DNA of 9,574 nucleotides from Clostridia bacterium (GTDB lineage Bacteria > Bacillota_A > Clostridia > Christensenellales > UBA1242). This document shows, piece by piece, positions 1 to 4,148 of the stretch. The notes beneath the pieces are model-generated. The model was not told the origin of the DNA and ran no database searches. It saw nothing but the letters and a program-made list of their open reading frames with translations. The position numbers and the translations under genes were made by a program. The stretch covers positions 1 to 9,574 of the forward strand of contig JAFTCZ010000081.1 in NCBI GenBank assembly GCA_017454425.1, read 5' to 3'. The first letter of the stretch is position 1, and each line of letters starts with the position of its first letter.

Positions 1-206
1 AATCTCGCCGCTTAAAAATCACATACAAAGACAAAGCTGGCAAAAAACAATACATCAATACCCTTAACGGAACAGCAATTGCCCTTACCCGCACAATGCT
101 TGCAATTATGGAAAACTATCAACAAAAGGATGGAAGTATAAAAATTCCTGAGGTTTTGCAAAAATACACAGGTTTTGATGTTATTAAAAATACAAAAAAT
201 AAATAA
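1..206 (+). CDS. serS: Seryl-tRNA synthetase, C-terminal fragment (5' truncated by window edge)
   Basis: The reading frame starting at base 3 is open from the left edge and ends at TAA 204-206, giving 67 residues. It reads through a segment with [20 protein letters not shown], which matches class II aminoacyl-tRNA synthetase motif 3 as found in SerRS (usually TLNGSGLAVGRTLVAILEN). This is followed by [14 protein letters not shown], the standard SerRS C-terminal signature, and a short Lys/Asn-rich tail. The motif 3 Arg contacts ATP. The enzyme charges tRNA-Ser (and tRNA-Sec where present) in the cytoplasm. The catalytic core and N-terminal coiled-coil arm lie outside the window. A strong hairpin terminator follows directly, so serS ends its transcription unit here and is not co-transcribed with the next gene. 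Confidence 0.95.
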
Positions 207-261: not shown

Positions 262-290
262 TTGACAAGATGCCCTTAACATGTTAACAT
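262..290 (+). promoter_or_regulatory. Sigma-A-type promoter of the 310-1320 gene
   Basis: A perfect -35 hexamer TTGACA (262-267) is followed by a 17-base spacer and a -10 hexamer TAACAT (285-290). The TG at 282-283 makes it an extended -10 element. Transcription should begin near 296-298, on or next to the Shine-Dalgarno bases AGAGG (298-302), so the leader upstream of the ribosome binding site would be almost absent. The spacer and -10 region are covered by palindromes (listed separately), which suggests regulation by a bound protein; that is inference. Confidence 0.75.
276..290. promoter_or_regulatory. Overlapping palindromes over the -10 region (possible operator)
   Basis: TTAACATGTTAA (276-287) is a perfect 12-bp palindrome. 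ATGTTAACAT (281-290) is a second perfect 10-bp palindrome that overlaps it and shares the -10 hexamer. Together they also read as two TTAACAT units 8 bases apart. Symmetric sites in this position are typical of dimeric repressor operators, but A/T-rich palindromes arise easily by chance and no regulator gene is adjacent. Confidence 0.35.
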
Positions 291-309: not shown

Positions 310-1320
310 ATGGGGAAATATAAAATTAAAAACAGTAACATAAAAACTGTTTCAAAAAAGGTTGTGGCAACAACAAAAATGGTAGATGAAGTACACACAT
401 CTTCAATATGGGATGTAATAGATTGCAGTAAATCACCAACCTATGTATCAGCACTTACTAGCCAGTTAAAACTTGATAAAAATGACCCAAAAATAATTCA
501 AATAGAAAAATATAAGGCACCAATTAATATTTTGCACTCTGTGTGTCGCGTTAGGTTAAATTATACATTGGCAAACCTGCCAAAATTGAAAGATTGGGAC
601 CACCACAGGCTGAACTTTAGTTTTGGAAAGACCAAAAATGAACAAAAAACCATTTATGATGCAATGTTAAGTACTCCAAAAGTGATTGTGCGAGCATATG
701 CACACAGTTATGAGGAAGATAACAATAAATATATTGTGGTACACTTTTATGCTTTGGCAGCACAAAAAACCGCTGAGGGTTTGCCAATAATTTATCGTCT
801 TGATATACTCACCTCACCCGACAAACCATATTTTTATGGTGTAAAATGTTTGGCAAGTATTGGGGGTTATGTTGACGGAGATTGCCCACTTGTGCAAATT
901 GCCACCGCACAAACAGGGATGGCAAAACAATATAACTATAAATCTGATTACACCTCATATAATGTAAACTATGACGATGACACGCCAAAACTTATGTATG
1001 ATGTAAAAACTGTTGACAACATAAATAATATTTACGATGTGTGTGATTATGCCTTCAAATTATTTAATGTTACCCATTCTATTGCATCTCCTTTAATGAC
1101 AAATAATGTTTATGAAATAATTACACTTTTAAGAAAAAATCCAAAATATCAAAAACCAATTAAGGGTGGACAATTTATTAAAGAATTTTTGGACCGTGGC
1201 ATATCACCAAATGATGGCTGCGAAAGACAATATATCTATTCAAACGAAGGTGTTATAAAAACCTCAAACATACATGGCAAAAAAATCAATCCCGCTTACA
1301 ACAAACCAGATACATTATAA
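310..1320 (+). CDS. Unrecognised cytoplasmic protein, 336 aa, relative of the 1410-2591 product
   Basis: I do not recognise this family. The ATG at 310 is supported by AGAGG at 298-302, 7 bases upstream, and by the promoter just before it. The protein is soluble, with no signal peptide or membrane segment. Residues 1-25 are Lys-rich and the C-terminal 50 residues are again basic. A central region of about residues 70-195 looks like an alternating beta/alpha fold with YTLANLP (85-91), KVIVRAY (124-130), GLPIIYRLDI (157-166) and IGGYVDG (184-190). A C-terminal helical part includes FKLFNV (249-254). The same landmarks occur in the same order in the convergent 393-residue protein, so the two are diverged paralogues. 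Six cysteines are scattered without a CxxC pattern, which argues against a zinc ribbon. No catalytic motif is evident. It lies between serS and a bidirectional terminator and is probably monocistronic. It is surely coding, but its function is unknown. Confidence 0.85.
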   Translation: MGKYKIKNSNIKTVSKKVVATTKMVDEVHTSSIWDVIDCSKSPTYVSALTSQLKLDKNDPKIIQIEKYKAPINILHSVCRVRLNYTLANLPKLKDWDHHRLNFSFGKTKNEQKTIYDAMLSTPKVIVRAYAHSYEEDNNKYIVVHFYALAAQKTAEGLPIIYRLDILTSPDKPYFYGVKCLASIGGYVDGDCPLVQIATAQTGMAKQYNYKSDYTSYNVNYDDDTPKLMYDVKTVDNINNIYDVCDYAFKLFNVTHSIASPLMTNNVYEIITLLRKNPKYQKPIKGGQFIKEFLDRGISPNDGCERQYIYSNEGVIKTSNIHGKKINPAYNKPDTL

Positions 1321-1364
1321 AAATTTTTAATCATCATTGTTTATAAAAAAACAACCAATAAAAC

Positions 1365-1393
1365 AAAAAGCCTTTAGTATTTAAGGCTTTTTT
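1365..1393. terminator. Bidirectional terminator between the two convergent paralogues
   Basis: A 10-bp stem, AAAAAGCCTT (1365-1374) pairing with AAGGCTTTTT (1383-1392), closes an 8-base loop. Read rightward it ends in TTTTTT; read leftward the arm runs into TTTTTGTTTTATT. It therefore serves both the rightward gene ending at 1320 and the leftward gene ending at 1410. Confidence 0.85.
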
Positions 1394-1409
1394 ATTTTTG
1401 ATATGGTTT

Positions 1410-2591
1410 TTATTTATTATAGTTATATTTGTATGCACGCATTAACATTTTTCGTTCTTTGTTTTGATATTTTGGGCTGCGAAAAACATCGTTTCTTATG
1501 GTGCGAGGTTTTGCTGGCTTTAATTCTTCTTTTGTTATTTCTTTTATAAATTTGGGCCTATTTTCGCGATAAATACTATTAATTTTACCCAACAGTTTGT
1601 ACGGATTTGGGATTTTGTTAATGTGAATTATCTTAAATTCTTCTTTCATAATATTTGCAATGGTGTCATTTTGAAATCTTAAATGCGGTTGATCACTAAT
1701 ATTAAAAATCTTCATCATGTATTGCAAGTTTGCTTCAAAATTATTGTATGCACAATTGCGCAAAAATTTTGGGCAACTTTTTTCGGGCTTTTCACCTATC
1801 TCATAATTAAAACTTGGCTTGTGCATGTGTGGAAAAGGTATGCAATACAAGTCATGCAACATGCCACAATTATCTTTTTGATATTTTTCCATTATATTTT
1901 TTTGCGCTTGCGTAAGACCTTTCGTAAGCACGGCATTTGTGCGCTTTGCCTCGGTTTTGCTAACATCTGAGGCGACAAAAGAATGTGGTGGCGTTGTGTC
2001 ATTATCTAGTCTTCCCAAAAACAACCAGCCATCTTCTTTGCCGCCAACTATTGCATACATGCTTATGCTGTAATGCTGTGGGTTTTTGAGGTCGATTGAC
2101 ACACTAAAACGATAAAGCGCCGGAATGCCTTTGCGCGCATTTGCATGAGGTGCTATGGCAAAAAAACTTGTACGCTGAACTTTACCATTTGAAGTATCAA
2201 ACATGTTGTAATGCAAATCAACAATTATTTTTGTTGAAGTGTACATCTCTCGCAATTGTTCGGGAGTGTAAACAAAATGATATTGCTGAAGGCTTGCGTT
2301 CTCGCAATAATCGGGAATGTTATCTAGTGTATATCCCTTCTTTAATGCAACAATACTTTCAACCAGTGGAATGTTAATTTGATGTGTGTCTTTGTTTATT
2401 GCATGAATTTGATGGTTGTTAAGCAACCTGTCTTCGTTTTGGGCAACTTCTTCCAAAATAAACAGCGAATCTTCGTCCTGAGCCAACAACACTTCCTCTG
2501 CGGTGTCTTTTGCATCTTTGGATAAAACATCGTCGTCGCTTGTGTTTAACATGCTTTGCACCACATGTCTTATGCTGTTGTTCTCTGCCAT
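1410..2591 (-). CDS. Unrecognised cytoplasmic protein, 393 aa, relative of the 310-1320 product
   Basis: I do not recognise this family. The ATG at 2591 has a G-rich ribosome binding site (GGGGG, 7 bases upstream) and a good promoter at 2621-2649. Residues 15-60 are strongly acidic, with runs such as SDDD, AQDEDS and EEVAQNED, and are probably a flexible or helical extension lacking in the 336-residue relative. The core (about residues 70-195) has INI (72-74), YTLDNIP (87-93), KIIV (121-124), GIPALYRF (155-162) and VGGKEDG (182-188), aligning almost gap-free with the convergent gene. A middle insert of roughly 50-60 residues rich in Lys, His and Cys follows, then MMKIFNI (292-298). The last 65 residues are very basic (many Lys/Arg, Pro-rich around 359-363), suggesting binding to nucleic acid, ribosome or another acidic surface; this is inference. 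There are no signal peptide or membrane segments. The gene is monocistronic, flanked by terminators on both sides. Confidence 0.85.
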   Translation of the reverse strand: MAENNSIRHVVQSMLNTSDDDVLSKDAKDTAEEVLLAQDEDSLFILEEVAQNEDRLLNNHQIHAINKDTHQINIPLVESIVALKKGYTLDNIPDYCENASLQQYHFVYTPEQLREMYTSTKIIVDLHYNMFDTSNGKVQRTSFFAIAPHANARKGIPALYRFSVSIDLKNPQHYSISMYAIVGGKEDGWLFLGRLDNDTTPPHSFVASDVSKTEAKRTNAVLTKGLTQAQKNIMEKYQKDNCGMLHDLYCIPFPHMHKPSFNYEIGEKPEKSCPKFLRNCAYNNFEANLQYMMKIFNISDQPHLRFQNDTIANIMKEEFKIIHINKIPNPYKLLGKINSIYRENRPKFIKEITKEELKPAKPRTIRNDVFRSPKYQNKERKMLMRAYKYNYNK

Positions 2592-2620: not shown

Positions 2621-2649
2621 ATTTTATCACAAAACAAGACATTTTTCAA
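2621..2649 (-). promoter_or_regulatory. Promoter of the 1410-2591 gene
   Basis: On the minus strand, the -35 element TTGAAA (2644-2649), a 17-base spacer and the -10 element TAAAAT (2621-2626) precede the gene. TGA directly upstream of the -10 gives an extended -10. The start point would fall near 2614, leaving a short leader of about 20 bases that carries the G-rich ribosome binding site. Confidence 0.75.
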
Positions 2650-3695: not shown

Positions 3696-4148
3696 TCAAA
3701 AATCACCTAGTATTGCAGGAAATCCTACATACAACATACCACTATTTTGACTAATTTGAACATTGTATATTTTGCCATCAATTTTTATGTTGTACGGAAT
3801 TTGTGGCGAATAGGCAATTGTGTCTAAATCATTTTTTGTTTTATACAATATATTTAATTTTTTTAATAAAACATTAATATCATTTTGTTTACTATTTACC
3901 ACAAAACTTTCACCAAGCAACATATTGCTGTTTAATGATTTGCGCACAAGCGGTGCATGTTGTATATTACATCTAACAACATACCCTTGCCCATTTTTGA
4001 CACAAGTTGTTAATGCACTTTCATAATTTTGAGTTGTATAAAAATAATAATTACCTTCTTGTTCTTGTGCATAGTATTGTGGTGCAGGCAAATTTATTGT
4101 GCATATCATTATGCATAATACTAACAAAAACACAAAAAACCTTTTCAT
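3696..4148 (-). CDS. Small secreted protein, possibly a short YwmB-like protein
   Basis: This 150-residue protein begins with a signal peptide (MKRFF followed by a hydrophobic stretch to about residue 20, with likely cleavage near YYAQEQ). The mature part has two cysteines (about 49 and 60), a GESF motif and a C-terminal pattern N-x-QI ... VG-x-PAI ending in LGDF. In my recollection, YwmB-type proteins (DUF1779) end with a similar NLQI ... GTPII pattern; B. subtilis ywmB lies in the ywmB-murAA-spoIID-spoIIQ region. Here the gene directly precedes a SpoIIQ-like gene, which strengthens the link. Length is well below the usual roughly 240 residues, so it would be a shortened form. The ATG is supported by AAGGAT (4155-4160) at 6 bases. 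It ends in TGA. No convincing promoter was found in the A/T-rich gap upstream. It is surely coding, but the family assignment is tentative. Confidence 0.7.
   Translation of the reverse strand: MKRFFVFLLVLCIMICTINLPAPQYYAQEQEGNYYFYTTQNYESALTTCVKNGQGYVVRCNIQHAPLVRKSLNSNMLLGESFVVNSKQNDINVLLKKLNILYKTKNDLDTIAYSPQIPYNIKIDGKIYNVQISQNSGMLYVGFPAILGDF

Follow-up and report, generated by a model that had tools for sequence, protein, structure and literature searches.

Two diverged paralogues of an uncultured Clostridia bacterium, with and without a conserved R-x-D ... H-x-H motif, and their remote kinship with a phage and plasmid cassette

Introduction

What are two convergent neighbouring genes whose products resemble each other, and what may they do for their host? 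The question is raised by a stretch of 9,574 nucleotides (called below the window) from a Clostridia bacterium, an uncultured bacterium of gut type. In a sequence-only reading the two products, named here protein A and protein B, were taken for diverged paralogues of an unrecognised family. The computational analysis described below places them as distant relatives of a gene that stands first in a little-studied phage and plasmid cassette; the second gene of that cassette was not found after either of them.

The locus and its genes

Both open reading frames were confirmed, one of 336 aa on the forward strand and one of 393 aa on the reverse strand (Table 1). The gene order of the window is serS-like end, A, B, acpP, M23 peptidase, a 150-aa protein, cysS, ABC-F-type, aspS and an MFS fragment. 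The names cysS, aspS and ABC-F were taken from Pfam domains; the segment 3-206, with no Pfam result above cut-off, is presumably the end of serS according to our own reading of the sequence. When the eight other window proteins were scanned against Pfam, the best match was in no case a defence domain. The 150-aa protein (3696-4148, reverse strand) is without a Pfam match; in genomes G023 (55% identity) and G008 (33%) it occupies the same place, with the M23 peptidase gene on one side and cysS on the other.

Genes A and B converge on one hairpin. A shared bidirectional terminator had been claimed; the hairpin was found, and terminator-like sites numbered 7 against 2.0 in shuffled sequences (sd 1.5). 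Each gene was also said to have its own strong promoter. Promoter-like sites are located where expected, but "strong promoters" stays an impression, because the number of such sites is at the level of chance (14 against 14.4 in shuffles).

Table 1. Positions of the two genes and of their local elements in the window
Feature	Position	Strand	Remark
Protein A gene	310..1320	+	336 aa, motif-less (A-type) paralogue
Protein B gene	1410..2591	-	393 aa, motif-bearing (B-type) paralogue
A-type signature GG-Y-V-DG-D-C-P-L (A residues 185-194)	862..891	+	row alignment
Codons R194-L195-D196 of B (R-x-D of family motif)	2004..2012	-	motif alignment
Codons H255-M256-H257 of B (H-x-H of family motif)	1821..1829	-	motif alignment
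Bidirectional intrinsic-terminator-like hairpin, common to A and B	1365..1392	both	between A and B
Promoter-like site TTGACA-17-TAACAT, upstream of A	262..290	+	site count at chance
Promoter-like site TTGAAA-17-TAAAAT, upstream of B	2621..2649	-	site count at chance
serS-like gene end	3-206		only sub-threshold class II synthetase match

Homology of A and B

Proteins A and B are homologous. They are aligned by BLASTP with E 1e-9 and 26% identity over 136 columns, and the profile-profile check proposed with the sequence-only reading gave a significant match: profile A1, built from four A-type proteins, and profile A2, built from 26 B-type proteins, are matched by hhalign with probability 98.7% and E 4.5e-16. 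The two are therefore diverged homologues, as had been supposed. The motifs on which that supposition was based sit inside the aligned core; [KI]-x-FN-[VI] falls beyond the BLASTP and hhalign ranges and is nevertheless aligned in an alignment of 39 rows.

Confident AlphaFold2 models were obtained for A (pLDDT 86.6, pTM 0.83) and for B (pLDDT 83.3, pTM 0.79). Core elements come in the same order with an offset of 2-3 residues, the strands being 124-136/139-149/161-168/176-183/191-201 in A and 121-133/136-146/159-167/174-181/189-197 in B, a comparison of strand order made without superposition. The two models are not independent, because the input alignment for A contained B and that for B contained A. 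No solved fold in the PDB matched A or B at E <= 0.001.

Retention and loss of the family motif

A difference which the sequence-only reading had not claimed is that B retains the most conserved motif of the family and A is without it. In an alignment of 73 rows the residues R, D, H and H (R194, D196, H255 and H257 of B, forming R-x-D ... H-x-H) are present in all 62 non-A rows, which represent 60 distinct sequences, with some further P rows nearly duplicating loci. Among the 11 A-type rows the aligned R and both H occur in none and the D in one (L088), and H-x-H was found nowhere in these 11 proteins; protein A itself lacks all four residues at the aligned positions and is without an H-x-H string. 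Of ten remote members beyond the alignment (L146-L155), nine carry R-x-D and H-x-H strings, found by text and not aligned column by column; L146 has neither. Five members of a longer group (417-468 aa) with an R-W-D-Y and H-x-H string were noticed: L151:4758-6161, L152:63-1337, L153:4020-5288, L154:4479-5729 and L155:4604-5866.

The A-type proteins possess invariant residues of their own. In 11/11 rows G185, G186, G190, C192 and L194 are kept, T215 and K124 are further invariant positions, and K124 and G186 are common to the rest of the family. The idea that A is a decaying pseudogene is disfavoured, since the reading frames are intact and these residues are invariant in all 11 rows.

Phylogeny and origin of the pair

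The split between the paralogues A and B is an old one. The 11 A-type rows come together in a single clade (99/94); its sister is a C-type clade of five rows in which the motif is retained, and B belongs to a separate clade of 24 rows (97/86; 93/75 with 25 rows when that of G031 is included). A recent duplication was rejected on these grounds, A grouping with the C-type branch and B in another clade, and the earlier opinion that the arrangement is not a simple tandem duplication agrees with the supported separation. When a further tree was built to include L175 and L146, support was 95/88 for 12 A-type rows including L175 and 95/89 for the B clade of 24 rows. L175 of genome G092 was recognised as A-type by profile and by absence of the motif and then fell inside the A clade on a very long branch. 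L146 was placed outside the A and C clades (97/78), a position that is unsure because of its long branch; other details of the tree are likewise unsure, several rows being on long branches.

Given this topology, the A clade as a whole probably owes its missing motif to one loss in its common ancestor, with a further loss perhaps in L146. This member (L146:4512-5525, reverse strand, 338 aa, genome G024) may thus represent a second, independent loss; a B-like gene was not found in its genome.

Placement beside DUF6978

A and B both fall short of the curated cut-offs of Pfam and NCBIfam, no clear match was obtained in PHROGs and PADLOC, and the Pfam DUF6978 model (PF22398) matches neither at E <= 1. 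The family had been called unrecognised, which is true of curated cut-offs; it can nevertheless be placed beside DUF6978/PDC-M24A by way of intermediates. The bridging group, A6, is an alignment of 15 distant members from the same lineage. It is matched by the B-type profile with E 1.4e-16 and itself matches the DUF6978 alignment with E 4.7e-11, and seven of its 15 members are matched by the Pfam model of DUF6978 at E <= 1, the best of them at 5.6e-6. The placement rests on such intermediates, because the direct comparison of B-type with DUF6978 by hhalign is not significant (E 0.04) and that of A with A6 is weak (probability 3.7%; 27% with E 6.7e-4 in the reverse direction).

The DUF6978 proteins of loci L120 and L122 are PADLOC PDC-M24A (4.9e-48 and 3.7e-41). 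Just 2 of 39 family members matched PDC-M24A, with best E 0.016, and at E <= 0.1 PADLOC gave no match for the A6-type protein L105 or for the partner protein at L117. The homology of A and B and this placement are considered very probable.

The DUF1828-type partner gene

In the phylum, eight of 299 genomes have a DUF6978 match above the cut-off of that model. In all eight chromosomal loci the next gene encodes a protein of 252-262 aa, and the eight align mutually; the identity in PADLOC is known from two scanned pairs, the neighbours of the L120 and L122 DUF6978 genes being PDC-M24B (1.5e-97 and 7.6e-97). The same arrangement is seen on mobile elements. Seven phage or plasmid records were matched, and in 5/5 of those examined a gene of 771-789 bases follows the DUF6978 relative; these five followers match the DUF1828 profile with E 4.5e-46 to 2.6e-86, and one is annotated as DUF1828. 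The cassette lies near an integrase gene in all three phage or satellite records examined (L158, L159 and L160, from temperate and satellite phages), with annotated HTH genes in two of the three.

A DUF1828-like gene comes directly after 14 of the 17 A6-type genes with downstream room, although 12 of these 14 partners are rows of the search profile A8 and match by construction, L148 and L149 being independent. The 17 loci include L118, L147, L148 and L149, those without a partner are L104, L113 and L147, and L115 and L099 were excluded for insufficient downstream room. Profile A8 matches the DUF1828 profile (A9) with E 1.1e-6, and in Pfam two of seven A6-type partners scanned matched DUF1828, both below cut-off. 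Remote members L150-L152 stand outside both the 17 A6-type and the 29 A-, B- and C-type loci: the partner signal of L150 is weak at 409 bases, L151 overlaps a gene that passes the DUF1828 cut-off (24.8 bits against 22), and L152 has no room. Immediately next to L155, one of the longer members, there is a partner-like ORF (A8 E 9.6e-7).

After A-, B- and C-type genes the partner-profile search found such a gene in 0 of 29 loci, and in the window there was no match downstream of A or B. In C-type loci L103, L106 and L109 a same-strand protein of 191-195 aa comes next (cluster c47, without a convincing Pfam match in the one scanned); it is a possible different partner of C-type members. At L100, L107 and L110 the family protein diverges fast (54% identity) in comparison to its DUF1828-like partner (87%) and other nearby genes (80-93%).

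Distribution and co-occurrence

Protein searches returned 4 relatives of A and 26 of B, counts that include near-identical sequences; no precomputed Pfam domain was assigned to any of these proteins. A scan of species genomes gave eight loci, all labelled Clostridia, Clostridiales or Christensenella. Within a family of small-genome uncultured Clostridia, members (E <= 0.001) were detected in 50 of 309 genomes, at most two per genome, which bears out the suspicion of a lineage-specific family with further copies. A sample of the order yielded matches in four of 200 genomes; G001, G009 and G025 were already in the family search and G668 is weak, with two stops. Since only this weak match is added, the family is, within these samples, largely confined to one lineage.

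Genes of the A clade are present in seven genomes (G001, G004, G009, G023, G146, G155 and G092), that of G092 having been found by a later search with an A-type profile, from which nine weak rows with E 9.4e-4 to 9.2e-3 and frames of 426-1230 aa were left out of the member count. Six of the seven also have a B-like gene, a type found in 17 of the 309 genomes. By Fisher's test, kinship being ignored, the co-occurrence has p 7e-8 over 309 genomes and 0.004 among the 50 with any member; without G092, kinship again ignored, it is 5/6 genomes with p 1.6e-6 and 0.014. For all motif-less members including that of G024 a B-like gene accompanies 6/8 (p 2.8e-7 and 0.013), and all these tests disregard kinship and assembly gaps and rest on a profile search that went further for A-type than for B-type genes. 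The window itself adds another case with both types. In G023, with an A-type gene, a B-like gene was not detected, and in 11 of the 17 B-like genomes an A-type gene was not detected. In the six genomes with both, the two genes are located on different contigs. For the A-type protein P0003 and the B-type protein P0009 the longest contig has the same length, 13,810 bases, and these two genes may therefore lie on one contig. The co-occurrence fits the earlier suggestion of A and B as interacting partners and does not show it.

Neighbourhoods, divergence and selection

Conservation of the serS-acpP position, raised by the sequence-only reading, proved to be only loose, the acpP cluster being present in 2 of 40 neighbourhoods compared. 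In G023 the order is mscL, the A-type gene, folD and acpP, and in G008 a B-like gene lies near acpP; mscL and folD, like rpmA below, are names that we presume from our own reading of the sequences, no Pfam results being above cut-off. Subgroups of the family keep their place in the genome. In L096 and L098 the A-type gene comes directly after the gene read as rpmA (L27); in L096 the next two genes are of the OGG/HhH-GPD and NYN-domain kinds, and in L098 the same clusters come after one more ORF. In L084 the start of the A-type gene lies inside the stop codon of thiI.

Six window proteins are 55-90% identical to their counterparts in G023, whereas A and the A-type protein of that genome share just 30% identity. 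A value for the family protein was obtained in 24 of the 26 locus pairs tried, and in all 24 it was below the median identity of the neighbours, the extremes being 54% against 91% and 89% against 89.5%; single neighbours were often lower still. In four of four close pairs, none of A-type, dN/dS was 0.04-0.16, with synonymous change near saturation in L091/L094 and some neighbours as high. These related genes, outside the A type, are under purifying selection.

Near the B-like genes of L086, L087, L090, L091, L094 and L095 SpoIIID-like regulators (cluster c5) were seen, one of them, in L086, confirmed by Pfam. Their occurrence in assemblies of about 1-1.2 Mb suggests that sporulation genes are present in small genomes.

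What the pair may be

As the best explanation it is proposed, tentatively where the whole is concerned, that A and B represent two branches which separated long ago within one protein superfamily. The usual form of this superfamily would be the first gene of the DUF6978-DUF1828 cassette, which is listed in PADLOC as phage-defence candidate PDC-M24 and occurs in prophages, satellite phages and plasmids as well as on chromosomes. In a single family of uncultured Clostridia with small genomes this first gene would have become a vertically inherited chromosomal gene, the B-type, C-type and A-type branches of which would no longer stand beside a DUF1828-type gene. Protein B, with R-x-D ... H-x-H retained, is best read as a toxin-like enzyme that descends from the DUF6978 type and has no partner gene; most likely it works as enzyme or effector in a toxin or defence role, and its conserved residues may form an active site. 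The branch of A would have lost the motif and has conserved residues of its own; A is most likely a non-catalytic paralogue that could restrain B or its target by binding, or else have another role. Catalysis, toxicity and an interaction of A with B are in this proposal predictions from sequence. Against it speak the stable synteny, unlike that of a mobile defence cassette, the A-type gene of G023 without a detected B-like gene and the motif-less L146 of G024, also without one.

The same facts may be read as domestication of both genes, which would then have an ordinary chromosomal role (e.g. RNA- or ribosome-linked regulation), no toxin or defence function and no dependence on each other. This is a serious though doubtful candidate. 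It would account for stable synteny within subgroups, for A-type genes after rpmA with the OGG/HhH-GPD and NYN-domain genes beyond, for the start within the thiI stop codon, for the low dN/dS of the four non-A pairs, for the absent partner and for a motif-less member in a genome without a B-like gene; identity below the neighbour median in every locus pair with a value, down to 54% against 91%, and patchy presence in 50/309 genomes are at odds with it. Rapid divergence would fit an active phage-defence or toxin pair, with B as effector and A as sensor or antidote in place of DUF1828, and the ancestry in DUF6978/PDC-M24A, the cassettes near integrase and HTH genes and the co-occurrence in six of seven genomes are in line with this. 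Such a pair is nevertheless unlikely, as the genes are on different contigs in other genomes and in the window converge without forming one operon, G023 and G024 do not conform, and the eight other window proteins have no defence domain as best match.

Less probable again is a combination, namely that a motif-dead A replaced DUF1828, B being an effector freed from the cassette and A an antidote or sensor made from a decayed sister effector (a "dead sibling" antitoxin) and lying apart from B in most genomes. That B could be a TumE-like (DUF6516) translation-inhibiting toxin, its R-x-D-N / P-H-x-H motif being common by descent, seems improbable, and it is the least probable of these readings. 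Membership of B in TumE, prompted by a resemblance of motifs, was tried and the profile tests did not support it. TumE and DUF6978 are matched by hhalign with E 0.0011, which is below 60/60 column-shuffled controls (lowest 0.039), a lenient control because column shuffling breaks local order; on the other hand the probability is only 20%, and in reverse 6% with E 0.006. The TumE profile gave no significant match to A6 (E 0.12) or to B-type (E 0.27), and because of these failures B is not filed as TumE.

With the preferred reading, B as toxin-like enzyme and A as its possible modulator, a dark, lineage-specific family gains an identity that can be tested, together with predicted key residues, and the phage-defence candidate PDC-M24 is tied to chromosomal, partner-free descendants. 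If it is true that motif-less A controls B, a toxin-like gene would have been tamed by its own inactive relative.

Comparison with known systems

TumE (DUF6516, PF20126) inhibits translation and, as far as its description in PMC10584680 goes, has an alpha+beta fold of two helices on a seven-stranded antiparallel sheet, with no confident PDB match. Its W-D-N-x-x-H ... P-H-H-x-H resembles R-L-D-N ... P-H-M-H of B; its partners, in the same description, are TumA antitoxins and not DUF1828.

The PDC systems are presented in a passage of a paper on the B. cereus group (PMC11811056) as unpublished candidates from Payne et al. 2021, and a literature search by the name PDC-M24 found no experimental test of it. 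PDC-M24 is a two-gene candidate system in which M24A is followed by M24B (DUF1828, PF08861). M24B or its DUF1828-type equivalent comes after DUF6978 and A6 genes; in the window none was found behind A or B, and A and B likewise lack a DUF6978 match of their own. DUF6978 reading frames have 141-174 aa in 7/8 loci (153 aa in the open frame of the eighth) in comparison to 336 aa of A and 393 aa of B, and A differs further in being without R-x-D ... H-x-H. Nevertheless, DUF6978/PDC-M24A and the family have in common this motif, whole in 6 of 8 DUF6978 rows (L119 is without R-x-D and L125 without H-x-H at that place), a conserved lysine early in the core and the link to B through A6.
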